From NCBI GenBank assembly GCA_019112625.1, contig DXIW01000008.1, positions 1 through 51,802 of the forward strand: 51,802 bases of DNA, read 5' to 3'. Shown in pieces: positions 1-51,762 of this stretch. The translations under genes were made by a program, and so were the position numbers. The notes under the pieces are model-generated. The model was not told where the DNA came from. It did not search any database and saw only the letters and a program-made list of their open reading frames with translations. The stretch comes from Candidatus Acutalibacter stercorigallinarum. GTDB taxonomy: Bacteria > Bacillota > Clostridia > Oscillospirales > Acutalibacteraceae. The number at the start of each line of letters is the position of its first letter. The stretch's first letter is position 1.

Positions 1-22
1 GTGTCATAGAAACCAATGACAC
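1..22. repeat. Perfect 7-bp inverted repeat, copy 1
   Basis: GTGTCAT is followed eight bases later by its exact reverse complement ATGACAC. The dyad lies in an AT-rich stretch of about 45 bp that contrasts with the very GC-rich surroundings, and it recurs at 186-207. It could be an operator, or the remnant of a mobile-element end. Neither can be decided from the window. Confidence 0.7.
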
Positions 23-64
23 TTTGATAGGCAAAATTCCCCGCAGGTGAAAGGAGGCGACCCC

Positions 65-235
65 ATGAGGCGATACCACCGGCTGGCCCTGGCAGCCTGC
101 CTGGCAGCGGCCTGCCTCCTGTTCCTCCCCGCCCCCGCCGCCCGCGCCCAAGGGGTGGAGGAGGCAGAGCTCTATGAAAAAAGCGGTGTCATAGAAACCA
201 ATGACACTTTGATAGGCAAAATTCCCCGCAGGTGA
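65..235 (+). pseudogene. Truncated spoIIIAE 5'-end copy (56-residue ORF)
   Basis: The ORF starts at ATG 65 behind AAAGGAGG (50-57) and encodes the same signal peptide and first residues as SpoIIIAE (about 41 residues, ending LYEKSG). It then runs into an unrelated tail, VIETNDTLIGKIPRR, read from the AT-rich repeat segment, and stops at 233-235. The stop codon overlaps the ribosome-binding site of the intact gene, so translation of this peptide could be coupled to spoIIIAE. It is most simply a by-product of tandem duplication. A function as a small secreted or leader peptide is possible but unsupported. Confidence 0.75.
186..207. repeat. Perfect 7-bp inverted repeat, copy 2
   Basis: This is the second exact copy of the GTGTCAT-N8-ATGACAC dyad. 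Here it sits 43 bp upstream of the start codon of intact spoIIIAE, inside the frame of the truncated first copy. Its position could affect coupling between the upstream sequence and spoIIIAE. Confidence 0.7.
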
Positions 236-249
236 AAGGAGGCGACCCC

Positions 250-1374
250 ATGAGGCGATACCACCGGCTGGCTCTGGCGGCCTGCCTGGCTATGGCCTGC
301 CTCCTGTTCCTCCCTACCCCCGCCGCCCGCGCCCAGGAGGTGGAGGAGGCAGAGCTCTATGAAAAAAGCGGCGCGTCGGGGCTGTACGACAGCCTGGACG
401 GGGAGACCCGGGACTTATTGTCCCAAGCAGGGGTGGAAGAGGGCCAAATCGGGTCAGATCTGGGCTTAAACGGGCTGTTTGGGGCACTTTCCCGGCTGAT
501 CCGGGACGAAATCGCCGCCCCGTTGAAGGCCGCGGCCTCCCTCCTGGCGGTAATCTTGCTGTGCCGCCTTGCCGCCTGCCTGGAGGAGGCCCGCCTGGGA
601 AAAGCCGCGGCCCTGGTGGGGGCCCTGGCCTGCGCGGGTATCGTGGCGGCCCCCCTGGCGGAGCTCATCGCCGGGGTGCAGACCGCCGCCCAGGCGGCCT
701 CGGCCTTCCTGGTGGCCAGCGTGCCGGTGTACGCCGGGCTGCTGGCGGCCTCGGGCAGCGCCGTCACCGGCAGCTCCTACAGCCTGTTGACTCTGGCCGC
801 CGGGAACGCCATCCCCCTGCTGGTGTCGGGGCTGGTGCTGCCCCTCCTGTCCCTGTTTCTGGCCCTGGCCCTGGTGTCGGCGGTGTCCGGCGCCGGCCTG
901 GACCGCCTGGCCAAGAGCCTGTACGGCTTCGCCAAATGGGCACTGGTGCTGGCGGTGACGGTGTTCTCCGGCTTTCTCTCCATCCAGACGGCGCTAAACG
1001 CCCAGGTGGACGCCGCCACCAGCAAGGCGGCCAAGCTGGCGGTCTCCTCGGCCATCCCCATTGTGGGCAGCGCTTTCGGCGACGCCATTGCCGCCATCCA
1101 GAACAGCGTCCACGCGGTGAAATCCGGGGTGGGTGCCTTTGGGATTCTGGCCGCCCTGTGCATCTTTGCCCCGGCGGCCATCCGGACCGCCCTGTGGGTG
1201 GGGGTGTGCACCGCGGGCCAGATCGCCGGGGAGCTGTTCCAGGCGCCGAAGCTGGGGGCTTTTTTAGGCTCCTGCGCCGAGGTGGCCCGGATGCTCCTGG
1301 CAGTGCTGGCCAGTATCTGCACGGTGTCGGTGGTCAGCGCGGCGGTGGTGCTGTTCGCCAGGGGGAGCGCATGA
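250..1374 (+). CDS. spoIIIAE: Stage III sporulation protein AE
   Basis: SpoIIIAE is a polytopic membrane component of the SpoIIIA-SpoIIQ channel that links the mother cell to the engulfed forespore. The 374-residue product has an N-terminal signal peptide (hydrophobic core at about 7-22, likely cleavage after the Ala-Arg-Ala near residue 28), a short soluble region, then repeated Ala/Leu/Val-rich membrane segments to the C-terminus, as in the family. I chose ATG 250 because AAAGGAGG lies seven bases upstream; a GTG at 232 is in frame but precedes that site. The gene overlaps spoIIIAF through ATGA. Its 5' end is duplicated at 65-235. Confidence 0.95.
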   Translation: MRRYHRLALAACLAMACLLFLPTPAARAQEVEEAELYEKSGASGLYDSLDGETRDLLSQAGVEEGQIGSDLGLNGLFGALSRLIRDEIAAPLKAAASLLAVILLCRLAACLEEARLGKAAALVGALACAGIVAAPLAELIAGVQTAAQAASAFLVASVPVYAGLLAASGSAVTGSSYSLLTLAAGNAIPLLVSGLVLPLLSLFLALALVSAVSGAGLDRLAKSLYGFAKWALVLAVTVFSGFLSIQTALNAQVDAATSKAAKLAVSSAIPIVGSAFGDAIAAIQNSVHAVKSGVGAFGILAALCIFAPAAIRTALWVGVCTAGQIAGELFQAPKLGAFLGSCAEVARMLLAVLASICTVSVVSAAVVLFARGSA

Positions 1375-1841
1375 GCGGGGTCCTGGCCACGGTGGGGGCA
1401 TTGTGCGTCCTGCTGGTGGCGGTGGAGGCGGCAGCCAGCCTGTGCGGGGACAGCCCTATGGTGGGCTTTGTCCGGGGGCTGGTGGTGACGGCGGCCCTGT
1501 TGTCCGGGCTCCTGACCCTGGTGTCCGCCGGCTGGGGGCTGGAGCTCTCCCTGGCCCCGGCCCAGGACGCCGGGGAGGAGCTGGTGAGCTATGTGGAGGA
1601 CCGGGCCCTCCAGGCGGCCCAGGAGGAGCTTACGTCCTATCTGAAGCGGCTGCTGGCCGCGGCGGGGCTGGAGGCGGAAAAAATCCAGGCCGCCACAGAT
1701 ATTGGGGAGGATGGCAGCATAGTATGTACCGGGGTAAGCGCCTGGTTCCGGTACCCCAGCGACGGGGAGCGGGCCTGGGCGCTGCTGCGGGGGGTGCTGG
1801 GCGAGGAGATCAGGATCGAGGTGATGACGGATGGAGCTTAA
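1371..1841 (+). CDS. spoIIIAF: Stage III sporulation protein AF
   Basis: This 156-residue protein has two N-terminal hydrophobic segments (about 3-19 and 28-48) followed by a soluble domain, the layout of SpoIIIAF, a subunit of the mother cell-to-forespore channel. ATG 1371 overlaps the spoIIIAE stop as ATGA, and the 3' end overlaps spoIIIAG by 11 bp, so translation is probably coupled. Identification rests on the layout and on its fixed place between spoIIIAE and spoIIIAG; the sequence itself is weakly conserved. Confidence 0.9.
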   Translation: MSGVLATVGALCVLLVAVEAAASLCGDSPMVGFVRGLVVTAALLSGLLTLVSAGWGLELSLAPAQDAGEELVSYVEDRALQAAQEELTSYLKRLLAAAGLEAEKIQAATDIGEDGSIVCTGVSAWFRYPSDGERAWALLRGVLGEEIRIEVMTDGA

Positions 1842-2373
1842 AAGCCTGGGGGAGGCCCTGGGAAAGCTCGCGGGCAGGGAGCGGCTGATAAAGCTGGTGT
1901 GCCTGCTGGGGGTGTGCGGCATCGCTCTGCTGTTCCTCTCCAGCTGGCTGGAGGGCCGGGAGGAGCCGTCCCAGCCCCAGCAGGAGACGGAGTGGGACGG
2001 GGAGACCTCCCGCCGCCAGCTGGAGGAGGACCTGGCCCGGGTGGTCCGGGCCATCACCGGCGAAGAGGACCCCGAGGTGCTGGTGACCCTGGAGGACACC
2101 GGGGAGAACGTCTACGCCGCCGACCAGGCCTGGAACGCCCAGGAGGGCGGCGCCCAGAACAGCCGGGAGGAGGAGAGCACCTACATCCTCCTGAAGGACC
2201 GGGACGGCGGCCAGAGCGCCCTGCCTGTCACCCAGCGGCAGCCCGAAGTCCGCGGGGTGGTCATTGTGAGCAGCCGCGCCGGGGACCCGACAGTCCGGGA
2301 ACAACTGACCCAGGCGGCGGTGACGGCGTTGGACATCTCCTCCGCCAGGGTGCTGGTCACCGGCGGCGGGTAG
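1831..2373 (+). CDS. spoIIIAG: Stage III sporulation protein AG
   Basis: SpoIIIAG forms a secretin-like ring of the feeding-tube channel in the space between mother cell and forespore. The 180-residue product has a short basic cytoplasmic N-terminus, one transmembrane segment at about 21-38, a charged acidic linker, and a C-terminal domain ending near a VTALDISSARVLVTGGG-like motif typical of the ring-building fold. The start ATG lies inside the end of spoIIIAF. Confidence 0.93.
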   Translation: MELKSLGEALGKLAGRERLIKLVCLLGVCGIALLFLSSWLEGREEPSQPQQETEWDGETSRRQLEEDLARVVRAITGEEDPEVLVTLEDTGENVYAADQAWNAQEGGAQNSREEESTYILLKDRDGGQSALPVTQRQPEVRGVVIVSSRAGDPTVREQLTQAAVTALDISSARVLVTGGG

Positions 2374-2421
2374 GCGGGATTCCCCGTAAAAAATCAAACA
2401 TATAGCGTGGAGGTATGGACA

Positions 2422-2988
2422 ATGAAAGTTGGAAAGAAGCAGCTGGTCCTGGCATCCCTGGTGCTGGCCCTGGGGGCGGCGGTATATCTCAACTGGCAGT
2501 TTGCCGGCACGGGCCAACTGCCGGTGGAAGAGGAGGGCCAGGCCCAGAGCCAGCTGGGGGCCGCCCAGCTGGTGAACAACGCCTATGTGGAGACCGTCAA
2601 CGACAGCCTGGAGAGCAGCGCCTCCAGCCAGGGGGACAGCGCCGCCGACGCCTTCTCCGAGGCGCGGCTGAACCGGCAGAACTCCCGGGACGAGGCGATG
2701 GAGCTGCTGGACGGGGTGCTGGAGGACGTGGAGGCGGACAGCGAGGCCAAGCAGGCCGCGGTGGAGGAGGCCTCGGCCCTGGCCCAGAACATCCTGCAGG
2801 AGACCAACGTGGAGAACCTTTTGAAGGCCAAGGGCTTTGAGGAGAGCGTGGCCTACATCACCCCGGAGGAGTGCAGCGTGGTGGTGGCCGGGGACCTGGG
2901 GGAGGCCGATATGCTCATCGTCCAGGAGATTGTGGTGGAGCAGACGGGGCTGACCGCCGACAAAATCAAAATCATTGGAACAAAGTAG
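2422..2988 (+). CDS. spoIIIAH: Stage III sporulation protein AH
   Basis: SpoIIIAH spans the mother-cell membrane and binds SpoIIQ from the forespore. The 188-residue product begins MKVGKKQLVLASLVLALG, a strongly recognisable family N-terminus with one transmembrane segment. A linker rich in Gln, Ser and acidic residues follows, then a C-terminal ring-building (YscJ/FliF-like) domain from about residue 105. ATG 2422 is preferred over GTG 2407 because GTGGAGGT sits seven bases upstream. It is the last gene of the spoIIIA operon here. Confidence 0.95.
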   Translation: MKVGKKQLVLASLVLALGAAVYLNWQFAGTGQLPVEEEGQAQSQLGAAQLVNNAYVETVNDSLESSASSQGDSAADAFSEARLNRQNSRDEAMELLDGVLEDVEADSEAKQAAVEEASALAQNILQETNVENLLKAKGFEESVAYITPEECSVVVAGDLGEADMLIVQEIVVEQTGLTADKIKIIGTK

Positions 2989-3016
2989 TTGTTTCTGGAA
3001 GATCTTGTGGTATAAT
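2989..3016 (+). promoter_or_regulatory. Sigma-A type promoter of the nusB operon
   Basis: TTGTTT at 2989-2994 and TATAAT at 3011-3016 are separated by 16 bp. The promoter begins right after the spoIIIAH stop and precedes a long structured leader. Confidence 0.8.
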
Positions 3017-3022
3017 AGCTTC

Positions 3023-3135
3023 ATAGCGCAGACGCGATAGCACAGGGACGCTGGCGGCGGCTGCGGCGGAGCTTGAAAAGTGCAGGGACCCAGGGACACG
3101 TGCAGGCTCGCCGCAGGATGCGGCGGGCCTTTTTG
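3023..3135 (+). promoter_or_regulatory. nusB leader with terminator/antiterminator switch
   Basis: Between the promoter and nusB lies an intrinsic terminator: an 11-bp stem (3105-3115 with 3119-3129, one G-T wobble), a three-base loop and a T-tract (3130-3134). An upstream segment (3062-3072) closely copies the right arm and can pair with 3106-3115 in ten base pairs with one bulged G. The two structures exclude each other, as in transcription attenuators and riboswitches. The leader also carries AGGGAC three times (3044, 3084, 3092). I do not recognise a known riboswitch or T-box consensus; the ligand or factor is unknown. Confidence 0.72.
3105..3134 (+). terminator. Intrinsic terminator in the nusB leader
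   Basis: A GC-rich 11-bp hairpin is followed directly by TTTTT. It lies between the promoter and the nusB start, so it must be bypassed for the operon to be expressed. Confidence 0.85.
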
Positions 3136-3185
3136 TTTGGGCCGTGCCGCGCCGGGCGGCGGAGAGAAAGGGGAATGCGGGAGAT

Positions 3186-3602
3186 ATGACGAGACGGGAA
3201 GCCAGAGAACAGGCCTTCTGCCTGGTGTTTGAGCAGGCGGTGGGCGGGGAAGCCATCCAGGACATCCTCCACGACGCGGCGGAGGCCAGGGATTTCGTAC
3301 CCAACTCCTATGCCGAGGCGGCGGCCTTTGGGGTGGAGGAGCACCGGGAGGAGATCGACCAGGTGATCCAGGGGAATATCCGGGGCTGGAGCTTTACCCG
3401 GCTGTCGAAAGTGACCTTGGCCCTGCTGCGGCTGGCGGTGTACGAGATGCTCTTCGACGAGAGCATCCCCGCCAGCGTGTCCATCAACGAGGCGGTGGAG
3501 CTGGCCAAAACATACGGCGGCAAGGACGACGCCCCCTACATCAACGGGGTGCTGGCCTCGGTGGCCAAGGCCCACTGTCCCAACGAGCCCGGCCATGAAT
3601 AA
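3186..3602 (+). CDS. nusB: Transcription antitermination factor NusB
   Basis: NusB binds boxA RNA with NusE (S10) and supports processive rRNA transcription. The 138-residue protein opens with MTRREAREQAF, the classic NusB N-terminus, and is all-helical throughout with the conserved SINEAVELAK..Y segment near residues 99-110. Start ATG 3186 gives the expected family N-terminus; GGGAG is close upstream. The 3' end overlaps the next gene by 8 bp. The leader carries an antitermination-type switch, so autoregulation is an attractive but unproven idea. Confidence 0.95.
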   Translation: MTRREAREQAFCLVFEQAVGGEAIQDILHDAAEARDFVPNSYAEAAAFGVEEHREEIDQVIQGNIRGWSFTRLSKVTLALLRLAVYEMLFDESIPASVSINEAVELAKTYGGKDDAPYINGVLASVAKAHCPNEPGHE

Positions 3603-4527
3603 ACACAGCGTCGGCATCGACACCAGCAACTACACCACCTCCGCCGCCCGGTACGACGGGGAGCGGGTGCTGGAGAACCGGAAGCTCTTGCTGCCGGTAA
3701 AGCCCGGGGAAAAGGGCCTGCGGCAGAGTGACGCGGTGTTCCACCACGTAAAGCAGCTGCCCCGGGTGCTGGAGCCCATTTTGGAGATGGGCCCGGCGGG
3801 GGTGGTGGGGGTGTCCATCACCCCCCGCAGCGAGATGGGCTCTTACATGCCCTGCTTTCTGGTGGGCAAGGGCTTTGCCTGCACCCTGGGGGCGGCCTGG
3901 GGGGTGGGGGTGAAGTTTTTCTCCCACCAGCAGGGACACATCGCCGCGGCGCTGTACTCCGCGGGAAAGCTGGAGCTGCTGGACCGGAAGTTTCTGGCCT
4001 TCCATGTCTCCGGGGGCACCACCGAGGCGCTGCTGGTACAGCCGGATTCCCAGGGCATGCCCGAGGTGGAGCTGGCAGCCCAGTCCCTGGACCTGAAGGC
4101 CGGCCAGGCGGTGGACCGGGTGGGGGTCATGCTGGGCATGGGGTTCCCCTGCGGGCCGGAGCTGGAGCGGGCCGCCCTGGCCTGGGACGGGCCAGTAAAG
4201 GCCAGGGCCTACATGAAGGGCAGGGACTGCTCCCTCTCCGGGGTGGAGAACCAGTGCCGGAAGCTCTGGGAGGAAGGCCATCCCCGGGAGGAGGTGGCCC
4301 GGACCTGCCTGGAGATGGTCCTGGCCGCCCTGGACGCCATGTGCGCGGGGCTTTTGGAGGACTTTGGCCCCCTGCCGGTGGTGTTTTCCGGCGGGGTGTG
4401 TTCCAACTCCATTTTGCGGGAACGCCTGACGGAAAAGTACGGCGGGGCCTTTGCCGCCCCGGAGTTTTCCGCGGATAACGGGGCCGGGGCTGCCATCCTG
4501 GCCTGGAGAAGGAGGTTTTTGCCGTGA
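3595..4527 (+). CDS. TsaD/Kae1-like (peptidase M22 fold) protein
   Basis: This 310-residue protein belongs to the ASKHA-fold Kae1/TsaD superfamily. It has the N-terminal GIDTSNYTTS nucleotide-binding motif, a metal-site-like HQQGH near residues 112-116, HVSGGTTEAL and a C-terminal FSGGVCSNS phosphate loop. True TsaD makes the t6A modification of ANN-decoding tRNAs. This version is somewhat shorter and looks like the clostridial paralogue often called O-sialoglycoprotein endopeptidase. Its position between nusB and xseA, with overlaps at both ends, indicates co-expression. Its activity is unknown, and a separate tsaD gene is expected elsewhere. Confidence 0.85.
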   Translation: MNKHSVGIDTSNYTTSAARYDGERVLENRKLLLPVKPGEKGLRQSDAVFHHVKQLPRVLEPILEMGPAGVVGVSITPRSEMGSYMPCFLVGKGFACTLGAAWGVGVKFFSHQQGHIAAALYSAGKLELLDRKFLAFHVSGGTTEALLVQPDSQGMPEVELAAQSLDLKAGQAVDRVGVMLGMGFPCGPELERAALAWDGPVKARAYMKGRDCSLSGVENQCRKLWEEGHPREEVARTCLEMVLAALDAMCAGLLEDFGPLPVVFSGGVCSNSILRERLTEKYGGAFAAPEFSADNGAGAAILAWRRRFLP

Positions 4528-5759
4528 GTGCTGGAGTGCTCACCGTCTCCCAGGTGAATTTCTTTGTCAAGTCCCTTATCGAGGGGGACGGCAGGCTCAG
4601 TGACATCCTCATCTCCGGGGAGATCTCCAACTTTACCGACCACTACCGGTCGGGGCACCTGTACTTTTCCCTGAAGGACGAGAAGTCTGTCCTGAAGGCG
4701 GTGATGTTCGCCAGCGCTGCCCGGCGGCTGCGGTTCCGCCCGGCGGACGGGATGAAGGTCATCATCCGGGGGCGGGTGTCGGTCTACGAGCCCACGGGGC
4801 AGTACCAGCTCTACGCCGAGGACATGCAGCCCGACGGCATGGGCGCTTTGAGCCTGGCCTACGAGCAGCTGAAGGAGCGCCTAGCCGCGGAGGGGCTCTT
4901 CGACCGGGAGCGGAAGCGGCCCCTGCCCCCTTACCCGGAGCGCATCGGGGTCATCACCTCCCCCACAGGGGCGGCGGTGCGGGACATTTTGCAGATCACC
5001 GGTCGGCGGTGGCCTGTGGCCCGGATCGTCCTGTGCCCGGTGCTGGTCCAGGGGGAGGGGGCGCCCCGGCAGCTCATCGCCGCGGTGAAGGCCTTAAACC
5101 GTGCCCGGGCCTGCGATGTGATCATCCTGGGCCGGGGGGGAGGCTCCATGGAGGACCTGTGGGCCTTCAACGACGAGGGCCTGGCCCGGGCGGTGGCGGC
5201 CTCCGCCATCCCCGTGGTGTCCGCCGTGGGCCATGAGACGGACTTTACCATCTGTGATTTCGCCGCGGACCTGCGGGCCCCCACCCCCAGCGCCGCCGCG
5301 GAGCTCTGCACCCCGGAGATCGGGGAGGAGAAGAGCCGGGCGGCAGCCTTCCACCGGTATTTCTGGGAGGGCTCCCGCAAGACTGTGGAATACCTGCGCC
5401 AGAGCCTGGACCTGCTGGTGCAGGACTCCCCCCTGGGGGAGCCGGGGGGCTACCTGCGGGCCTACCGGGAGCGCCTGGACGGCCTGGACCGGCGGCTGGC
5501 CCAACGGGGCCGGGGCCGGCTGGAGGAGGGGAGAGGGAAGCTCTCCCTGCTGGCCGGGAAGCTGGACGCCCTGAGCCCCCTGAAGGTGCTGGCCCGGGGC
5601 TATGCCGTGGTGTACGACGGCAGGGGCGGCATCGTCCGGGACGCGGGCCGGCTGGCCCCGGGGGAAGTGGTCACCATCCGGGCGGCAGAGGGCGAAGCCC
5701 GGGCAAAAGTCGTGGAAAGGAGTGAGCGAAGTGGCGGCAAAACCCAAACTGAAATTTGA
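4524..5759 (+). CDS. xseA: Exodeoxyribonuclease VII large subunit
   Basis: XseA with XseB degrades single-stranded DNA to oligonucleotides. The 411-residue product has the N-terminal OB-fold region (VSQVNFFVKSLIE, ISGEISNF) at about 8-100 and the catalytic domain with GRGGGS, AVGHETD and a DLRAPTPSAAAEL segment, then a charged helical region and a C-terminal ARGYAVV motif. The GTG start overlaps the previous stop as GTGA, with GGAGG eight bases upstream. The stop lies inside xseB. Confidence 0.96.
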   Translation: MSAGVLTVSQVNFFVKSLIEGDGRLSDILISGEISNFTDHYRSGHLYFSLKDEKSVLKAVMFASAARRLRFRPADGMKVIIRGRVSVYEPTGQYQLYAEDMQPDGMGALSLAYEQLKERLAAEGLFDRERKRPLPPYPERIGVITSPTGAAVRDILQITGRRWPVARIVLCPVLVQGEGAPRQLIAAVKALNRARACDVIILGRGGGSMEDLWAFNDEGLARAVAASAIPVVSAVGHETDFTICDFAADLRAPTPSAAAELCTPEIGEEKSRAAAFHRYFWEGSRKTVEYLRQSLDLLVQDSPLGEPGGYLRAYRERLDGLDRRLAQRGRGRLEEGRGKLSLLAGKLDALSPLKVLARGYAVVYDGRGGIVRDAGRLAPGEVVTIRAAEGEARAKVVERSERSGGKTQTEI

Positions 5760-5955
5760 GGAGGCCATGGCCCGGCTCCAGGAGATTGTGGAGAAGCTGG
5801 AGAGCGGGGAGGAGTCTTTGGAGGACTCCATGAAGCTCTTTGAGGAGGGGGCCAAGCTCTCGGCCCTGTGCTACGAGACCTTGGACAAGGCCGAGCAGAA
5901 GATCACCGAACTGACGCCCCTGGCGGCGGACGAGGAATGCCATGAAGAAACTTGA
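5731..5955 (+). CDS. xseB: Exodeoxyribonuclease VII small subunit
   Basis: The 74-residue helical protein contains FEEAMARLQEIVEKLESGE and a SLEDSMKLFEEG segment, the hallmark of XseB, the partner that assembles onto the XseA helix. GTG 5731 is favoured because AAAGGAG lies eight bases upstream; GTG 5722 is in frame but overlaps that site. It overlaps xseA by 29 bp and ispA by 14 bp, so the three are very likely translationally coupled. Confidence 0.93.
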   Translation: MAAKPKLKFEEAMARLQEIVEKLESGEESLEDSMKLFEEGAKLSALCYETLDKAEQKITELTPLAADEECHEET

Positions 5956-6826
5956 ACAGGCGGAAGCCTACCGGAAGAAGATTGAGGCGGCCCTGGAGGC
6001 CGCGCTGCCCGCCCCCGTCCCCGGGGACCGGGCGGGGAAAGTGACAGAGGCCATGCGGTACAGCCTGCTGGCGGGGGGCAAGCGGGTGCGGCCGGTGCTC
6101 ACCCTGGCGTTCTGCGCCCTGTGCGGCGGGGACCCGGACCGGGCCCTGCCCTTTGCCTGCGCCATCGAGATGGTGCACACCTATTCCCTCATCCACGATG
6201 ACATGCCCTGCATGGACGACGACGACCTGCGCCGGGGCCGGCCCACCAACCACAAGGTCTTCGGGGAGGACATGGCCCTGCTGGCCGGGGACGGCCTTTT
6301 GACCCTGGCCTTCGAGACGGCCCTGTCCTTTGACGGCAGGCCGGAGGACACGGTAAAGGCCCTGCGGCTTTTGGCGGAGTACGCCGGGGCCAGGGGCATG
6401 GTAGGGGGCCAGTGCATCGACCTGAGCTCTAACGGCCGGGAGGTGGACCTGGACACCCTGCGGGAGATGGACCAGGGCAAGACCGTGGCCCTCATCGCCG
6501 CGGCCTGCGCCATGGGCTGTGTGGCCGCCGGGGCCGGGGAGAAGGAGCTGGCCGCCGCCAAGCGCTTTGCCCAGGGGCTGGGCATGGCCTTCCAGCTGCG
6601 GGACGACGTGCTGGACGTGCTGGGTGACGCCCAGAAGCTGGGGAAAAACACGGGGATGGATTCCGCCCATGAAAAGCGCAACTATGTGACGCTGCTGGGG
6701 GTGGAGGAGGCCCAGCGCCTGGTGGGCGAGTACACCAAAGAGGCGCTGGAGGCCCTGCGGGAATTCCCCGGGGACGCCGGTTTCCTGCGGGAGTACGCCA
6801 TCGCCCTGGTGGAGCGGGAGACGTGA
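5942..6826 (+). CDS. ispA: Polyprenyl (farnesyl diphosphate) synthase
   Basis: The enzyme condenses isopentenyl diphosphate with allylic diphosphates to make farnesyl diphosphate for undecaprenyl and quinone synthesis. The 294-residue product carries the first aspartate-rich motif HDDMPCMDDDDLRRG (Asp86 onward), the KRVRP substrate loop, and the second motif RDDVLDVLGD near 220-228. Length and motifs fit the short-chain FPP class. Many relatives have dxs directly downstream; here a pseudouridine synthase follows with a GTGA overlap. Confidence 0.93.
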   Translation: MKKLEQAEAYRKKIEAALEAALPAPVPGDRAGKVTEAMRYSLLAGGKRVRPVLTLAFCALCGGDPDRALPFACAIEMVHTYSLIHDDMPCMDDDDLRRGRPTNHKVFGEDMALLAGDGLLTLAFETALSFDGRPEDTVKALRLLAEYAGARGMVGGQCIDLSSNGREVDLDTLREMDQGKTVALIAAACAMGCVAAGAGEKELAAAKRFAQGLGMAFQLRDDVLDVLGDAQKLGKNTGMDSAHEKRNYVTLLGVEEAQRLVGEYTKEALEALREFPGDAGFLREYAIALVERET

Positions 6827-7731
6827 CCCGCCTGCTGCAGTACCCTGTCCCAGCGGAGTGGGACGGGGCCCTGGTAAAAGATTTTGTGCGGCGGGGCCTG
6901 GGATTTTCCGCCCGGGTGCTCACCCAGCAGAAGTTTTTGGAGGGGGGCCTCGCCCGCAACGGGGAGCCCTGCCGGGCCGTGGACCGGCTGGCGGCGGGGG
7001 ACAGGCTCGCCCTGGCCTTCCCCGATGAACCGGTGGATTACCCGCCGGCGGCGGGGGAGCTGGCGGTGGTGTACGAGGACGGGGACTACCTGATCATAAA
7101 TAAGCCCCCAGCCATGCCGGTACACCCCTCCCCGGGGCACGACACCGACAGCCTGCTGAACCGGGTGGCCTACTATTATGAAAAGACGGGCCAGGCCCAC
7201 CGGGTGCGGCCCCTCTACCGCCTGGATAAGGACACTACCGGTCTGGAAGTGCTGGCCAAGCACCGGGCCGCGGCCTCCTGCTCCCGGGCGGAGAAGCGCT
7301 ACTATGCCGTGTGCCAGGGGGAGCTTTCCGGCTGCGGCACCATCGACGCGCCCATCGGCCTGGGGGAGGGGAGCAGGATCGTGCGGGAATGCGGCCGGGG
7401 ACAGCCTGCTGTGACCCACTGGAAAGCCCTGGCCGCTGGGCAGGGCCACACCCTGCTGTCCCTGGAGCTGGAGACCGGCCGCACCCATCAGATCCGCTGC
7501 CATTTGGCGGGGACCGGCCATCCCCTGGCCGGGGACGACCTGTACGGGGGCAGCCTGGCGCTGCTGCCCCGGCAGGCCCTGCACTGCGGCAGGGTGCTGC
7601 TCTGCTGCCCTGCCCTCGGTATGGAGAGAGAGTTCCAGGCCGACCTGCCCCAGGACCTGCGCCGAGCCTTCCCCTGGCTGCCGGACTGGGAGGACATCAC
7701 AAAGGAGGAGAAGTTATGCCCGCCTGCCTGA
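6823..7731 (+). CDS. RluA-family RNA pseudouridine synthase
   Basis: The 302-residue enzyme isomerises uridines in rRNA or tRNA. An N-terminal S4-like segment (about 12-60) precedes the catalytic domain with RPLYRLDKDTTG, where Asp135 is the expected nucleophile, and ETGRTHQIRCHL, the RluA-family signature. The start is GTG 6823, overlapping the ispA stop as GTGA. The exact target (RluD-like or another site) cannot be told from sequence alone. It ends just inside the next gene. Confidence 0.92.
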   Translation: MTRLLQYPVPAEWDGALVKDFVRRGLGFSARVLTQQKFLEGGLARNGEPCRAVDRLAAGDRLALAFPDEPVDYPPAAGELAVVYEDGDYLIINKPPAMPVHPSPGHDTDSLLNRVAYYYEKTGQAHRVRPLYRLDKDTTGLEVLAKHRAAASCSRAEKRYYAVCQGELSGCGTIDAPIGLGEGSRIVRECGRGQPAVTHWKALAAGQGHTLLSLELETGRTHQIRCHLAGTGHPLAGDDLYGGSLALLPRQALHCGRVLLCCPALGMEREFQADLPQDLRRAFPWLPDWEDITKEEKLCPPA

Positions 7732-8579
7732 CCCACACCTATTTTGCCAAAGCCGTGGCCCAGTCCCTGGGGGAGACCGGGCTGGAGAACACGCCGGAGT
7801 ACATCTGGGGCGCCCAGGGGCCGGACTTTTTGTTCTGCCACCGGTATTTCCCCTGGATGAAGGGCCGCAGCCTGAAGGAGTACGGCAGTCGCCTGCACAG
7901 CGAGGTAAAGCCCTCGGTGACGTTTTCCGCCATGCGGGAGTTCTTGTCCCGCCACCGGGACCCGGGCTACCGGGCCTATGTGACGGGCTTTGTGTGCCAC
8001 TACGCCCTGGACTCCACCGCCCACCCCTATGTGAACGCCCTGGCAACAGAGCTGGCCGCCCAGCGGCCCTGGGAGACCGTGAGCACCATGCACGGGGAGG
8101 TAGAGGCCTCTTTGGACGCCATCATCCTCCGGCGGGAGACGGGGATGCTGCCCTCCCAGGTGAACGTGAAGCAGATGTTCCCCAAAAACGAGAGCGCCCA
8201 GCGGCGCATCGCAAAGCTGTACCAGGCGGTGCTCCTCTCCGCCTGCGGGGAGGACGTGCCCGAAGGGGAGCTGCTGCGGGCCACCAACGACGCCCACTTT
8301 GTGTTCAGCCTGCTCAACGACCGGACGGGCCTGAAGCGCCAGCTGTTCCAGCGGGTGGAGAAGGGAAAGCCCAGCCTGGTGACCTCCCACATCGTGCCCA
8401 TCACCGAGGAGGACGGGGTGGACTTTGCCAACATCCAGCACAGCCCCTGGGGGGACCCGCCCTCGAAGCAGAGCTTTTTCGACCTGTTCGACCAGGCGGC
8501 GGAGCTGGCGAAACAGCTCATCACCCGGTTTGACACCTGCGACTTCGCCGCCCTCACCGGGGAGCGGCCCTTCGGCTGA
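7716..8579 (+). CDS. Zinc-dependent phospholipase C-like protein
   Basis: The 287-residue product is rich in spaced His and Asp residues in an all-helical pattern: THTYFAK near the start, WGAQGPDFLFCHRY, CHYALDSTAHPY and HGEVEAS. This arrangement matches the zinc-dependent phospholipase C / S1-P1 nuclease-like fold, which binds three zinc ions. No signal peptide is visible, so it probably acts in the cytoplasm and may not be a secreted lipase. AAAGGAGG lies eight bases before ATG 7716. It closes the nusB operon before a terminator. Confidence 0.82.
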   Translation: MPACLTHTYFAKAVAQSLGETGLENTPEYIWGAQGPDFLFCHRYFPWMKGRSLKEYGSRLHSEVKPSVTFSAMREFLSRHRDPGYRAYVTGFVCHYALDSTAHPYVNALATELAAQRPWETVSTMHGEVEASLDAIILRRETGMLPSQVNVKQMFPKNESAQRRIAKLYQAVLLSACGEDVPEGELLRATNDAHFVFSLLNDRTGLKRQLFQRVEKGKPSLVTSHIVPITEEDGVDFANIQHSPWGDPPSKQSFFDLFDQAAELAKQLITRFDTCDFAALTGERPFG

Positions 8580-8597
8580 AAAAACGCAAAGAAAAAA

Positions 8598-8626
8598 GAG
8601 CTGCCCGAAAGGACAGCTCCTTATTT
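8598..8626. terminator. Bidirectional terminator between the phospholipase-like gene and rpmB
   Basis: GAGCTG at 8598-8603 pairs with CAGCTC at 8614-8619, with a short inner CC/GG pair and a GAAA loop. On the minus strand it is followed by a clean run of T, making a strong rpmB terminator; on the plus strand TTATTT follows. Confidence 0.85.
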
Positions 8627-8651
8627 CTCACTCACAGCGCAAGGGGCGAAA

Positions 8652-8840
8652 TCACACCGCGCGGGTGACCTTGCCGGAACGCAAGCAACGGGTGCAGGCG
8701 TACACACGCTTGGGCGTGCCGTTGACGATCGCCTTGACACGCTTGATGTTGGGTTTCCAGGTCCGGTTGGAACGTCTGTGGGAATGGGACACCTTGATGC
8801 CGAAGGTAACACCCTTTCCGCAGAAATCACATTTTGCCAT
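8652..8840 (-). CDS. rpmB: 50S ribosomal protein L28
   Basis: The 62-residue protein starts MAKCDFCGKG and contains VSHSHRRSNRTWKPN and CTRCLRSGKV, so it is the zinc-ribbon (C+) form of L28 with paired CxxC motifs. A GGAGGT site lies just upstream of the ATG on the minus strand. It is monocistronic, with its own promoter and terminator, and is the only clear minus-strand gene here. In Bacillus rpmB sits next to spoVM; here it is about 19 kb from spoVM and inverted. Confidence 0.97.
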   Translation of the reverse strand: MAKCDFCGKGVTFGIKVSHSHRRSNRTWKPNIKRVKAIVNGTPKRVYACTRCLRSGKVTRAV

Positions 8841-8888
8841 ATCTGCACCTCCTTAATAAGAGCTGGGCTCGAATTTACAGCAAACAGA

Positions 8889-8917
8889 ATTATAGCAGAT
8901 GTCCGGCCCAAATGCAA
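8889..8917 (-). promoter_or_regulatory. Promoter of rpmB
   Basis: Read on the minus strand, TTGCAT (8912-8917) and a consensus TATAAT (8889-8894) are separated by 17 bp. It lies about 50 bp upstream of the rpmB start. Confidence 0.88.
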
Positions 8918-8934
8918 GTTTTTTTTCAAAGGAA

Positions 8935-8963
8935 TTGCCATTTTTTCGAAAATGGGGTATAAT
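8935..8963 (+). promoter_or_regulatory. Promoter of the M50 protease-scpAB operon
   Basis: TTGCCA (8935-8940) and TATAAT (8958-8963) are 17 bp apart, just upstream of AAGGAGG and ATG 8988. It is arranged back-to-back with the rpmB promoter. Confidence 0.88.
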
Positions 8964-8987
8964 CCTAACCGTATAAGGAGGTACGCC

Positions 8988-9683
8988 ATGTTATTTGACG
9001 TTATCCGGCAGCTGTCCGCCGGTTATCAAGTAGACCTATGGCAGGTGCTGGCCCAGGTGCTCTCGGTGGTGTTCGTCATCCTGTGCATCCTGCCCCTGCA
9101 CGAGTTCGCCCACGGCTGGGTGGCCTATAAGCTGGGGGACCCCACCGCCAAGCTGGCGGGCCGCCTGACCCTGAATCCCCTGGCCAGCGTGGACCCCATG
9201 GGGGCCGCGGCCATCCTGCTGTTTGGCTTTGGCTGGGCCAAGCCCGTGCCTGTGGACAGCCGCTATTTTAAGAAGCCCAAACAGGGCATGGCCCTGGTGG
9301 CCCTGGCCGGGCCCGGCGCCAACCTGCTGGCCGCCTTGCTGGGGGCGCTGGTCATGGCGGTGATGCAGGCCTTCGTGCCGGTCAACGGGGTGACCCAGTT
9401 CCTCTACAGCGTGTTCTATTATTATGTTCTGGTGAATATCTCCCTGGCGGTGTTCAATCTGCTGCCCATCCCGCCCCTGGACGGCTCCCGGATTGTGGGG
9501 GCGTTCCTCAGCGACAGGATGCTGTACAGCTACTACCGCTACCAGAACATCTTCTCCATGGCGGTGTTCGTGTTGGTGCTCTCCGGGGCCATGTCCGGCC
9601 CCCTGTACCGGGCCCAGAGCTTTTTGGCCAATGTGATCTTCACCATCGCCGCCGCGCCGTTCCGGCTGTTTGGGGTGCTGTGA
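8988..9683 (+). CDS. Site-2 protease family (M50) membrane metalloprotease
   Basis: The 231-residue integral membrane protein has HEFAH (His38, Glu39, His42) for zinc binding in its first core transmembrane segment and NLLPIPPLDGSR near the C-terminal part, which supplies the third zinc ligand. This compact form lacks PDZ or CBS domains, like the clostridial YwhC-type proteases. AAGGAGG precedes ATG 8988. It is three bases from scpA, so co-expressed, though no functional link to condensin loading is known. Confidence 0.9.
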   Translation: MLFDVIRQLSAGYQVDLWQVLAQVLSVVFVILCILPLHEFAHGWVAYKLGDPTAKLAGRLTLNPLASVDPMGAAAILLFGFGWAKPVPVDSRYFKKPKQGMALVALAGPGANLLAALLGALVMAVMQAFVPVNGVTQFLYSVFYYYVLVNISLAVFNLLPIPPLDGSRIVGAFLSDRMLYSYYRYQNIFSMAVFVLVLSGAMSGPLYRAQSFLANVIFTIAAAPFRLFGVL

Positions 9684-9686
9684 CCT

Positions 9687-10415
9687 ATGGAGAAGCTGCA
9701 ATACCGGCTGGAGGCCTTCCAGGGGCCCTTGGACCTGCTGCTGGCCCTCATCGCCAAGAATAAGATCGAGATCACCGACATCCCCATCGCGGAGCTGCTG
9801 GACCAGTACATGGAGCAGATCGACCTGATGCGGGAGGAAAATTTGGATATAGCCAGCGAGTTCTTGGAGATGGCCGCCCGGCTGGTGCAGATCAAGACGG
9901 CGTTTTTGCTGCCCAAGCACCAGGAGGACGAGGACCCCCGGCTGGAGCTCACCGGCCAGCTGCTGGAGTACCAGCAGTGCAAGGCCGCCGCCGCGGCCCT
10001 GCAGGAGCGGGCCAACTTCGACGCCCTGACCCGTGGCCCGGAGGACCTGCCCGTGGACCACACCTACCGCCGGGAGCACCAGCCCCGGGAGCTGCTGCAG
10101 GCGCTGGTCTCCGCCTGGGGGAAGGGCAAGAGCCTGCTGCCCCCCAAGGCTGAGAGCTTCTCCGCCCTGGTGAGCCGGAAGATCGTGTCCGTGGCCTCCC
10201 AGGTGGTGTTCGTGCTGCGGCAGCTGTGGAAAGGGAAGCGGGTCTCCTATGAGGCATTGTTTGCCGGGAAGCACGACCGCTCGGAGCGGGTGGCGGCGTT
10301 TCTGGCGGTGCTGGAGCTGGTGAAGAGCCGGCGCATCCGGGTGGAGGGCGACCCGGGCCGGGAAGAAGTGAGATTGCTGGAAAGGGGGGACCGCCCGTGG
10401 ACCGGGAAGAGCTGA
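9687..10415 (+). CDS. scpA: Segregation and condensation protein A
   Basis: ScpA is the kleisin that bridges the SMC heads in the bacterial condensin complex. The 242-residue protein has the N-terminal FQGPLDLLLALI signature, a long charged middle, and a C-terminal winged-helix region. It overlaps scpB by 19 bp, matching the usual coupling of the two subunits. Confidence 0.95.
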   Translation: MEKLQYRLEAFQGPLDLLLALIAKNKIEITDIPIAELLDQYMEQIDLMREENLDIASEFLEMAARLVQIKTAFLLPKHQEDEDPRLELTGQLLEYQQCKAAAAALQERANFDALTRGPEDLPVDHTYRREHQPRELLQALVSAWGKGKSLLPPKAESFSALVSRKIVSVASQVVFVLRQLWKGKRVSYEALFAGKHDRSERVAAFLAVLELVKSRRIRVEGDPGREEVRLLERGDRPWTGKS

Positions 10416-10960
10416 AAGGAAAGATGGAGGCCATCCTCTTTGCCGGAGGGGACGCCGTGGCCCTGGAGCGCATCGCCCAGGTGCTGGGTACCCGGGTCTA
10501 TGTGATCGAGGAGCTGGCGGCAGAGCTCCAGGAGAAGTACAACACCCCCCAAAGCGGTATCCACCTGCTGCTGCTGGAGAACAGCGCCCAGTTCTGCACC
10601 AACCCGGCGTTCATCCAGCCGGTGCGGGACGCCCTGGAATTGAAGCGCAACACGCCCCTGTCCCAGGCGGCCATGGAGGTGCTGGCGGTGGTGGCTTACA
10701 ACCAGCCGGTGACCAAGGCCTTTGTGGAACAGGTGCGGGGGGTGGACTGTTCCGGGGTCATCGGCAGCCTGGTGCAGAAAGGCTTGTTGGAGGAGCGGGG
10801 CCGCATGGAGCTCCCTGGCAGGCCGCTGCTGTACGGCACCACCGAGAATTTTCTGCGGTGCTTCGGGCTGTCCTCCATCGGCGAGCTGCCGCCCCCGCCC
10901 CGGGGGGAGGAGGGCACGCCCCCCGAGGAACCGGACGGGCCCCAGCAGATCACCCTGTGA
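10397..10960 (+). CDS. scpB: Segregation and condensation protein B
   Basis: ScpB binds ScpA as a dimer with tandem winged helices. The 187-residue product shows MEAILFAGGDAV at the start and the conserved QAAMEVLAVVAYNQPVTKAFVEQVRGVD segment around residues 92-118. Its start is GTG 10397, within scpA. The Pro/Glu-rich C-terminal tail is variable in the family. Confidence 0.95.
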   Translation: MDREELKGKMEAILFAGGDAVALERIAQVLGTRVYVIEELAAELQEKYNTPQSGIHLLLLENSAQFCTNPAFIQPVRDALELKRNTPLSQAAMEVLAVVAYNQPVTKAFVEQVRGVDCSGVIGSLVQKGLLEERGRMELPGRPLLYGTTENFLRCFGLSSIGELPPPPRGEEGTPPEEPDGPQQITL

Positions 10961-10975
10961 GAGAGGCTGTGTGAC

Positions 10976-11665
10976 ATGATCGTTCTCCTTGTGATAGCCG
11001 GGGTGCTGCTGCTCCTGCTTTTGCTCCTCCTCCTTCCCCTGGGGCTGGAGGCGGAGTACCGGCAGGGCTTTACCCTGCGGCTGCGATACCTATGGTTCAC
11101 CATCCCCCTGCTGCCCGGGGAGGAAGAGGAGGTCCCGGCAGGGTCCCCCGCCCCGGAAGAAGGGGAGGGCCCCGGCGGCCTGGGGGCGTTGAAACGGGGC
11201 TGGAACAAGCTGCGGGCCATCCTCCGCCGGGAGGGGCTGGAGGGCTTTCTCCAATCGCTGCTGGACTTTACCCAGGCGGTGAAGGACTCCTCCCAGCGGC
11301 TGCTGCGGCACGTGAAGCTGAAGCGGTTCGACCTCTACCTGTGTGTGGCCGGGGAAGAGGACGCGGCCCAGGGGGCCGTCCTCTACGGGAAGGTGTCTGC
11401 CGGGGTGTACGCTGCCTGCGGGGCGCTGTTCGGCCTGCTGCCCTGCAGGAAGAAGGGGGTCGCCGTGGATTTGGACTACGGCGCCAGAGAACACCGGATC
11501 GACTTTTCCGGGAAGCTCACAGCGGCTCCCCTGTTCTTGCTCCGGGAGGCCGTGGTATTATTGTGGAAGGGACTGCCGCTTTTCAAAAAGCTCCAGGCGA
11601 GGGGCGGCAGTGGACATACAAGCGAGACCGAAAAACGAGAAAGGGAGGACTTCCCCCATGAGTGA
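10976..11665 (+). CDS. DUF2953 membrane-anchored protein (YtfI-like)
   Basis: The 229-residue protein starts with a very hydrophobic Leu-rich segment (2-21), then a Gly/Pro/Glu-rich linker and a soluble domain ending in a second hydrophobic helix near 185-200. It fits the DUF2953 family, which includes Bacillus YtfI, and lies directly before ytfJ as in Bacillus. The function is unknown, though its conserved partner suggests a sporulation role. The 3' end overlaps ytfJ by 8 bp. Confidence 0.82.
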   Translation: MIVLLVIAGVLLLLLLLLLLPLGLEAEYRQGFTLRLRYLWFTIPLLPGEEEEVPAGSPAPEEGEGPGGLGALKRGWNKLRAILRREGLEGFLQSLLDFTQAVKDSSQRLLRHVKLKRFDLYLCVAGEEDAAQGAVLYGKVSAGVYAACGALFGLLPCRKKGVAVDLDYGAREHRIDFSGKLTAAPLFLLREAVVLLWKGLPLFKKLQARGGSGHTSETEKREREDFPHE

Positions 11666-12086
11666 AAATCAGGTAAACAACCTTTTGGGCGTGAGCATGG
11701 AGAAGATCAAGGAGATGGTGGACGTGAACACCGTCATTGGCGACCCCATCGCCACCCCGGACGGCACCACGGTGATCCCCATTTCCCGGGTGAGCTACGG
11801 CTTTGCCTCCGGCGGCACGGACATCCCCTCCAAGGCCCAGCCGGCCGCCGGGCTTTTTGCCGGGGGCAGCGGCGCGGGGATCACCATCAGCCCCATCGGC
11901 TTTTTGACCATCCGGAACGGCAGCGTGCGCATGCTGCAGATCGAGCCCTATGTCAGCCCCATGGACCGGGCCCTGGAAAAGCTGCCGGAGCTGGTGGACA
12001 AGCTGGGCGCCCTGTTCCAGAAGGAGGAAAAGCCCGCCCCTGCCCCGGAGGAGGACGTCCCCGGGCCGGAGGCTCCCCAGGAATAA
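11658..12086 (+). CDS. ytfJ: GerW-family sporulation protein YtfJ
   Basis: The 142-residue protein has the typical YtfJ course: an N-terminal helix NLLGVSMEKIKEMVDVNTVIGDP, then VIPISRVSYGFASGG, a Gly-rich GGSGAGITISPIGFL stretch, and a C-terminal acidic Pro-rich tail. In Bacillus ytfJ is forespore-expressed under sigma F and affects spore germination. It overlaps the preceding gene and lies 45 bp before the carboxypeptidase gene, another frequent forespore product. Confidence 0.92.
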   Translation: MSENQVNNLLGVSMEKIKEMVDVNTVIGDPIATPDGTTVIPISRVSYGFASGGTDIPSKAQPAAGLFAGGSGAGITISPIGFLTIRNGSVRMLQIEPYVSPMDRALEKLPELVDKLGALFQKEEKPAPAPEEDVPGPEAPQE

Positions 12087-51575: not shown

Positions 51576-51652
51576 GGGGGCATAGCTCAGCTGGTTAGAG
51601 CACCTGCCTTACAAGCAGGGGGTCACAGGTTCGAGTCCTGTTGTCCCCACCA
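51576..51652 (+). tRNA. tRNA-Val (anticodon TAC)
   Basis: The cloverleaf is complete: a seven-base acceptor stem (GGGGGCA with TGTCCCC, one wobble), a CTTACAA anticodon loop giving TAC, a TTCGAGT T-loop and an encoded CCA at 51650-51652. Confidence 0.97.
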
Positions 51653-51685: not shown

Positions 51686-51762
51686 GGCCCGGTAGTTCAG
51701 CTGGTTAGAACGCTAGCCTGTCACGCTAGAGGTCGACGGTTCGAGCCCGTTCCGGGTCGCCA
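51686..51762 (+). tRNA. tRNA-Asp (anticodon GTC)
   Basis: Acceptor GGCCCGG pairs with CCGGGTC with one wobble. The anticodon loop is CTGTCAC, giving GTC; a TTCGAGC T-loop and encoded CCA (51760-51762) follow. It lies 33 bp after tRNA-Val. Confidence 0.97.

Follow-up and report, generated by a model that had tools for sequence, protein, structure and literature searches.

A boxA-bearing leader with two alternative stems before nusB in Acutalibacteraceae: a candidate protein-sensing transcription attenuator

The nusB locus and the parts of its leader

The window, i.e., the whole stretch of 51,802 nucleotides analysed here, is one contig of an incomplete assembly (86% complete) of Candidatus Acutalibacter stercorigallinarum. 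The gene neighbourhood comprises spoIIIAE, spoIIIAH, nusB, a TsaD-like gene, xseA and the genes of a polyprenyl synthetase and a pseudouridine synthase (Table 1). The named relatives of the window NusB come from Acutalibacter, Neglectibacter species and other gut Clostridia. The protein is homologous to NusB proteins of known structure, including 3r2c and 3r2d, which we take to be boxA complexes. An open reading frame at 47-235 (+) is a near-exact copy of the first part of the spoIIIAE product (232-1374, +), as if the start of spoIIIAE had been duplicated in tandem.

Table 1. Features of the nusB leader and its flanking genes (window positions)
Feature	Position	Strand	Details and evidence
spoIIIAH, upstream neighbour accompanying the leader in the genus	2407..2988	+	Pfam SpoIIIAH; context of loci L001-L027
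Promoter	2989..3016	+	-35 TTGTTT 2989-2994, 16-nt spacer, extended -10 TGG-TATAAT 3008-3016
Antiterminator 5' arm, CTGCGGCG-G-AGCTT, overlapping the boxA start	3061..3074	+	13 standard pairs with 3104-3116; covariation, cross-pairing
boxA GCTTGAAAA, core CTTGAAAA 3072-3079; proposed NusB-S10 site	3071..3079	+	rRNA-leader identity; TTGA invariance
Shared arm (terminator left arm and antiterminator 3' arm)	3104..3116	+	exact repeat, pairing, pair counts
Intrinsic terminator, 12-pair hairpin 3104-3130 and T run	3104..3134	+	terminator scan; covariation
nusB, gene presumed to be controlled	3186..3602	+	Pfam NusB E 6.7e-31; start ATG

By its sequence, the leader is laid out as a promoter, a 5' arm joined to boxA, a variable loop and an intrinsic terminator whose left arm is complementary to the 5' arm plus the initial bases of boxA. 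The original prediction placed a terminator between a good promoter and nusB, and as regards the terminator this holds. The sequence AGGCTCGCCGCA-GGA-TGCGGCGGGCCT forms 12 pairs (3104-3115 with 3119-3130), followed by the T run. In a scan of window positions 1-12000, which gave 24 terminator-like sites against a shuffle mean of 8.0, this terminator was listed first. For the promoter the word "good" applies in part: its extended -10 is perfect, its -35 is weak (3/6 matches), and it was absent from the sites listed by the promoter scan. The transcription start is predicted near 3023.

A -10-like site is found upstream of the unit in all 35 leaders compared, with TGn ahead of it in 29 of them; seven of these sites, being at least 90 nt away from boxA, may be spurious. 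In nine leaders the distance from the end of the -10 to boxA is exactly 13 nt, and in 14 it is 12 to 16 nt, so the transcript would start at about the antiterminator arm. Since the promoter stands upstream of the terminator, with the -10 at the 13-nt distance in those nine leaders, the terminator is expected to lie within the nusB transcript. From arm to the end of the terminator hairpin the unit measures 58 to 97 nt (median 72). The smallest form would be a transcript starting at the antiterminator arm, with sensor and terminator together occupying about 60-70 nt.

An antiterminator of ten base pairs, made by an upstream repeat of the terminator's right arm, had been proposed; the pairing is in fact longer. 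Positions 3061-3068, an exact complement, pair with 3109-3116, and 3070-3074 pair with 3104-3108, leaving a single bulged G at 3069. The arm ends in AGCTT and continues as GAAAA, and thereby overlaps CTTGAAAA, a feature absent from the original prediction.

boxA in the leader and in the rRNA operons

boxA is the known binding site of NusB-S10 and the rRNA antitermination signal. The sequence GGACCTTGAAAATTAAACAACG occurs 172-192 nt ahead of 16S in 10 of 11 same-genus loci (12 were returned and 11 examined, the eleventh being devoid of upstream sequence). Its first 20 nt, GGACCTTGAAAATTAAACAA, were found in 17 of 29 same-genus genomes, and the reversed control in none. The window's own assembly holds this 20-mer once, in an rrn-like leader, 24 nt before a contig end; the boxA octamer of the nusB leader is identical to the one in this rrn leader. 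In eight further family genomes, where 16 of 18 16S loci were examined and two fragments left out, CTTGAAAA lies upstream at 15 of 16 loci, the sixteenth starting too close to a contig end for an upstream boxA. At 14 of the 16, TTGAAAACTGAATAAAG is present in the stretch behind 16S, which we take to be the 16S-23S spacer.

CTTGAAAA is regarded as boxA because it is found both before and behind 16S and resembles CTTTGAAAACT, presumably the boxA of Bacillus. The comparison indicates that this family has CTTGAAAA as its boxA. It is one T shorter than CTTTGAAAA, the form of Bacillus, and could escape searches that use the usual consensus. The TTGA of boxA is invariant in the nusB leaders (35/35). 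Two of these leaders (L134 and L147) have ATTGAAAACTGAAT, 14 nt, in common with the spacer form of other genera, ACATTGAAAACTGAATAAAG; the rRNA operons of these two genomes were not found in the 16S locus search.

Conservation, covariation and folding

Among 27 nusB loci (L001-L027) from the 29 same-genus genomes, spoIIIAH lies just upstream of nusB in 13. The arm, TTGAAAA and the terminator are present in 12 of these 13 junctions; the exception, L022, has CTTTCAAAG in place of TTGAAAA. The 14 loci without spoIIIAH, one of which (L005) has only 122 nt of upstream sequence, contain boxA in a single case, L011 (G001), where it precedes nusB though spoIIIAH is elsewhere. The arrangement there differs, the arm being able to pair with a segment (TTGCCGC) that lies between boxA and the terminator.

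A model (R1) trained on 13 leaders, 12 of them from the genus, was used to search 398 genomes of the family with no gene anchoring. Matches at E <=0.01, mostly weak, were obtained in 110 genomes; 17 of the 30 returned loci directly precede nusB, and 13 of these 17 belong to genera not used in training. TTGA[AC]A is present in all 17. The remaining 13 loci are not at nusB and look like ordinary terminators; four contain TTGAAAA (L141, L150, L156 and L161). A second model (R2) was applied to 140 genomes of 135 genera, NusB being detected in 128. Among the matches listed, which extend to about E 0.05, 18 genomes have one just upstream of nusB, and 16 of these carry TTGA[AC]A (all except G128 and G185), i.e., the arm-boxA-terminator unit stands before at least 16 of 128 nusB genes. 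Five of the 16 are training members, one is near-identical to a training member and ten are neither. The nine best R2 matches are all nusB leaders, six of them training or near-training sequences, and the tenth is not at nusB. The G185 locus (L248, G185:C1:187350-187680) is a nusB leader with a GTGGA arm and a terminator and no TTGAAAA between them; boxA has perhaps been lost there.

The distribution of the leader is patchy: in 112 of the 128 surveyed nusB genes the unit is lacking or undetected. Forty other nusB upstream regions (25 from the family, 15 from the order) yielded boxA plus terminator in two, L113 and L116, the latter being the G059 leader already counted among the 16; none was seen in 17 further nusB upstream regions read. 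An order-wide search of 394 genomes gave matches in 33. Of 30 returned loci 26 were examined: six are at nusB, all within the family Acutalibacteraceae, and the 18 from outside the family all lie away from nusB (L175 was judged by the NusB search alone). On these comparisons, the unit is conserved across species before nusB.

The terminator stem is 93.7% paired in an alignment of 13 leaders, with five pairs changed on both sides, and 92.5% paired in 19 leaders of more genera, with six such pairs. The corresponding values for the antiterminator are 85.9% with three double-changed pairs and 74.4% with four. The antiterminator exceeds shuffled alignments in score, paired cells and double-change cells (<=1/500 as high). 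Its number of double-changed pairs is not above shuffles (101 and 188 of 500 as high), nor is its number of pair types (107 and 187 of 500).

The arms occur in two registers, GGTGA-A-GCTT with AGGC-TCACC and GTGGA-A-GCTT with AAGC-CC-TCCAC. One alignment cannot hold both, and the arms were therefore tested directly in 35 of 36 leaders (L228 was dropped), with relatedness partly controlled. Own arms pair with a mean of -10.59 kcal/mol, a value reached by 0 of 20000 permutations; permuted arms average -8.24. When each of the 17 genera was represented by a single leader, the median p was 0.0055, and p was <0.05 in 99% of 300 draws. Of the 35 leaders, 28 pair at -7.5 kcal/mol or better; L018, L147, L158, L176, L231, L244 and L113 fall short of this value. 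Taken singly against shuffled arms, 10 of 19 leaders pass at 0.05; in L015, L147 and L158 the own arms show no advantage over shuffled ones. Two nusB leaders have boxA and no good antiterminator (L113 and L176), as does L228 by eye.

The original prediction held that the two folds exclude each other and asked for covariation of both stems in aligned relatives. The shared arm and the covariation of both stems, across 17 genera in the arm test, agree with this. Two mutually exclusive stems are both kept by compensatory change, the terminator strongly and the antiterminator by cells, score and cross-pairing.

That there is no switch at all, the terminator being a remnant of the upstream spoIIIA operon while CTTGAAAA and the repeat arose by chance, is very unlikely. 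Terminators are common at operon ends, and plain terminators without boxA do occur before nusB (e.g., L247). Moreover, CTTGAAAA is found twice in the window with 0.71 copies expected, and 14 of 100 shuffles hold at least two. Against this stand a unit that is conserved before nusB across genera, covaries and is recovered without reference to genes, and a promoter located upstream of the terminator, which puts the latter inside the nusB transcript.

The original prediction also allowed for an unknown riboswitch. A small-molecule riboswitch of unknown class would fit the terminator-antiterminator layout upstream of a gene; it is nevertheless extremely unlikely and was rejected, the leader having no Rfam match and the aligned leaders no additional conserved structure. 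Outside the arm, boxA and the terminator, the aligned leaders have loops of differing length and sequence, in which an aptamer would find little space; the element under strong conservation is boxA. Consistent with the earlier remark that no riboswitch consensus could be recognised, no Rfam 15 family, riboswitch or other, matches the leader at gathering score. A permissive search of 2980-3220 returned three chance-level minus-strand matches (best E 0.67). Three AGGGAC repeats pointed out earlier are indeed present (3044, 3084 and 3092); they occur in none of the other 34 leaders and are for this reason taken as incidental. No conserved short reading frame for a leader peptide was seen by eye. 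Over the whole window, Rfam gathering scores are reached only by two tRNA genes at its end (51576-51649 and 51686-51759, +).

Compared with shuffled versions of itself, the stretch 3023-3136 has a more stable fold (z -2.11, 3/200 as good); the stretch 3023-3114, cut before the right arm of the terminator, has no extra stability (z -0.01). In the full window leader the antiterminator is favoured: the terminator probability is 0.022, rising to 0.998 with 3071-3082 held single-stranded. The flip is not tied to boxA in particular: it also occurs with 12-nt blocks that start at 3041-3074 and at 3092, and does not occur with those starting at 3023-3038 and 3077-3089. An upstream stretch, 3042-3059, pairs with the right arm and T run of the terminator (about 3119-3136), and it is due to this pairing that the antiterminator state is the global minimum in the window. 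The stretch has no counterpart in the minimal leaders of relatives, whose starts lie too far downstream.

In minimal RNAs with boxA free, the terminator is favoured at equilibrium in 34 of 35 leaders. Holding boxA open raises its probability clearly in a few of them only (L003, 0.60 to 0.96; L007, 0.80 to 0.95; L135, 0.81 to 0.98; L170, 0.47 to 0.93). In transcripts cut before the right arm, the arm pairs with the left arm in 32 of 35 leaders by a lenient measure that had no control. Equilibrium folding failed to give proof of a switch in all species. Since the terminator is preferred in nearly all minimal leaders (34 of 35), a switch would in most species have to be kinetic.

Proposed mechanism and relation to known systems

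The leader is probably a protein-sensing transcription attenuator, in which NusB-S10 acts on boxA and lowers the synthesis of NusB. NusB autoregulation through an attenuator had been suggested in the original prediction, and the boxA in the leader, the covarying stems and the presence of the unit before nusB in many genera, all read from sequence, lend support to it. At a low level of free NusB-S10, the 5' arm, together with the first part of boxA, would pair with the emerging left arm of the terminator. The antiterminator so formed would delay or prevent the terminator, and RNA polymerase would read into nusB. Excess NusB-S10 would bind single-stranded boxA and strip the inner pairs of the antiterminator; with boxA occupied, the terminator could form and transcription would halt before nusB. 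A kinetic version is favoured, in which the antiterminator would form first unless NusB-S10 on boxA prevented it. The boxA sites of rRNA would compete for NusB-S10, and nusB output would consequently follow the demand for rRNA transcription. The terminated RNA, which carries boxA, could serve as a sponge for NusB-S10.

The sign of control, NusB lowering its own synthesis, is inferred. It has a precedent in E. coli, where boxA represses suhB (PMC5725501). The opposite sign is possible but unlikely. NusB-S10 on boxA would then join RNA polymerase as it does in rRNA operons, the modified polymerase would pass the terminator, and nusB would be switched on when Nus factors are plentiful. Such positive control is in keeping with boxA as the rRNA antitermination signal, present in the rRNA operons here, and, as it does not call for an antiterminator, it would accommodate L113 and L176. 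In E. coli, intrinsic termination in vitro is reduced by the full rrn complex when SuhB is part of it (PMC6614801). On the other hand, in the same work NusB-E without SuhB did not suppress intrinsic termination below the level of polymerase alone, which, if the E. coli case applies here, would speak against positive control. The known Nus autoregulation is repressive (PMC5725501). Positive control also leaves unexplained why the boxA-adjacent arm covaries with the terminator, as well as boxA's own part in the antiterminator.

In E. coli and Salmonella, suhB is subject to boxA-dependent autoregulation by the Nus complex (PMC5725501). The nusB leader resembles it in having an rRNA boxA copy in the mRNA leader of a Nus-factor gene and, as proposed here, feedback by the Nus complex. 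However, suhB is described there as controlled by translational repression followed by Rho-dependent termination, with no intrinsic terminator switch. The nusB leader does not fit a mechanism of the suhB type, since it possesses an intrinsic terminator and an antiterminator overlapping boxA. In the gamma-proteobacteria treated in that paper (PMC5725501), boxA is found at suhB and rpsJ and not directly upstream of nusB; the only nusB-linked case is a boxA upstream of ribH-nusB in six Pseudomonas species.

Other leaders of genes for Nus-related factors are the rimP leader (PMC2965389) and the rpsJ motif of Peptostreptococcaceae, located before the S10 gene (PMC11109978). The passages available of the former report a conserved terminator stem with no visible antiterminator, and neither motif is linked there to boxA or nusB. 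In the open-access literature searched, no report of a boxA attenuator at nusB was recognised. The nusB leader with boxA and an intrinsic-terminator attenuator appears to be a new variant of boxA-based Nus autoregulation.

The leader shares with the rrn antitermination complex an identical CTTGAAAA in genomes of the genus and family. In rrn operons boxA serves antitermination and rRNA folding, whereas in the nusB leader it is part of the proposed attenuator, where it probably promotes termination. Protein-sensing attenuators of genes for RNA-binding proteins include ribosomal protein leaders and those of the TRAP and LicT kinds. There, too, the decision between terminator and antiterminator is made by a protein acting on the leader; the proposed nusB case differs from them in that the protein is an antitermination factor and its site a single-stranded boxA.

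Whether this amounts to a family-specific class of attenuator, where an rRNA boxA copy and an antiterminator arm let NusB-S10 terminate its own gene and NusB supply tracks rRNA demand, seems to us evenly balanced. If the proposed attenuator is real, nusB itself would be under direct feedback control, boxA-based Nus autoregulation would extend beyond proteobacteria, and an antitermination factor would act through an intrinsic terminator. The leader offers a compact, testable RNA for how the demand for rRNA synthesis feeds back on the Nus machinery.

A boxA attenuator could instead sense another input, such as free S10, NusA, a pause or the speed of transcription, with NusB as a bystander. S10 belongs to the boxA-binding complex, and the arms might by themselves be enough for a kinetic attenuator. 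This reading is nonetheless quite improbable, as the unit stands before nusB and was not found in its nusB form upstream of the S10 gene at 25 same-genus loci. The window genome's own S10 upstream region has no TTGA[AC]AA and reads GTGTTGAGAAA at the place of the GTGTTGAAAA noted below. Within 300 nt upstream of the S10 gene, TTGA[AC]AA occurs at 6 of the 25 loci and CTTGAAAA at none. Five of the six (L270, L274, L275, L276 and L289) have GTGTTGAAAA about 48 nt before the S10 start, and the sixth has GTTTGAAAAC at -291.
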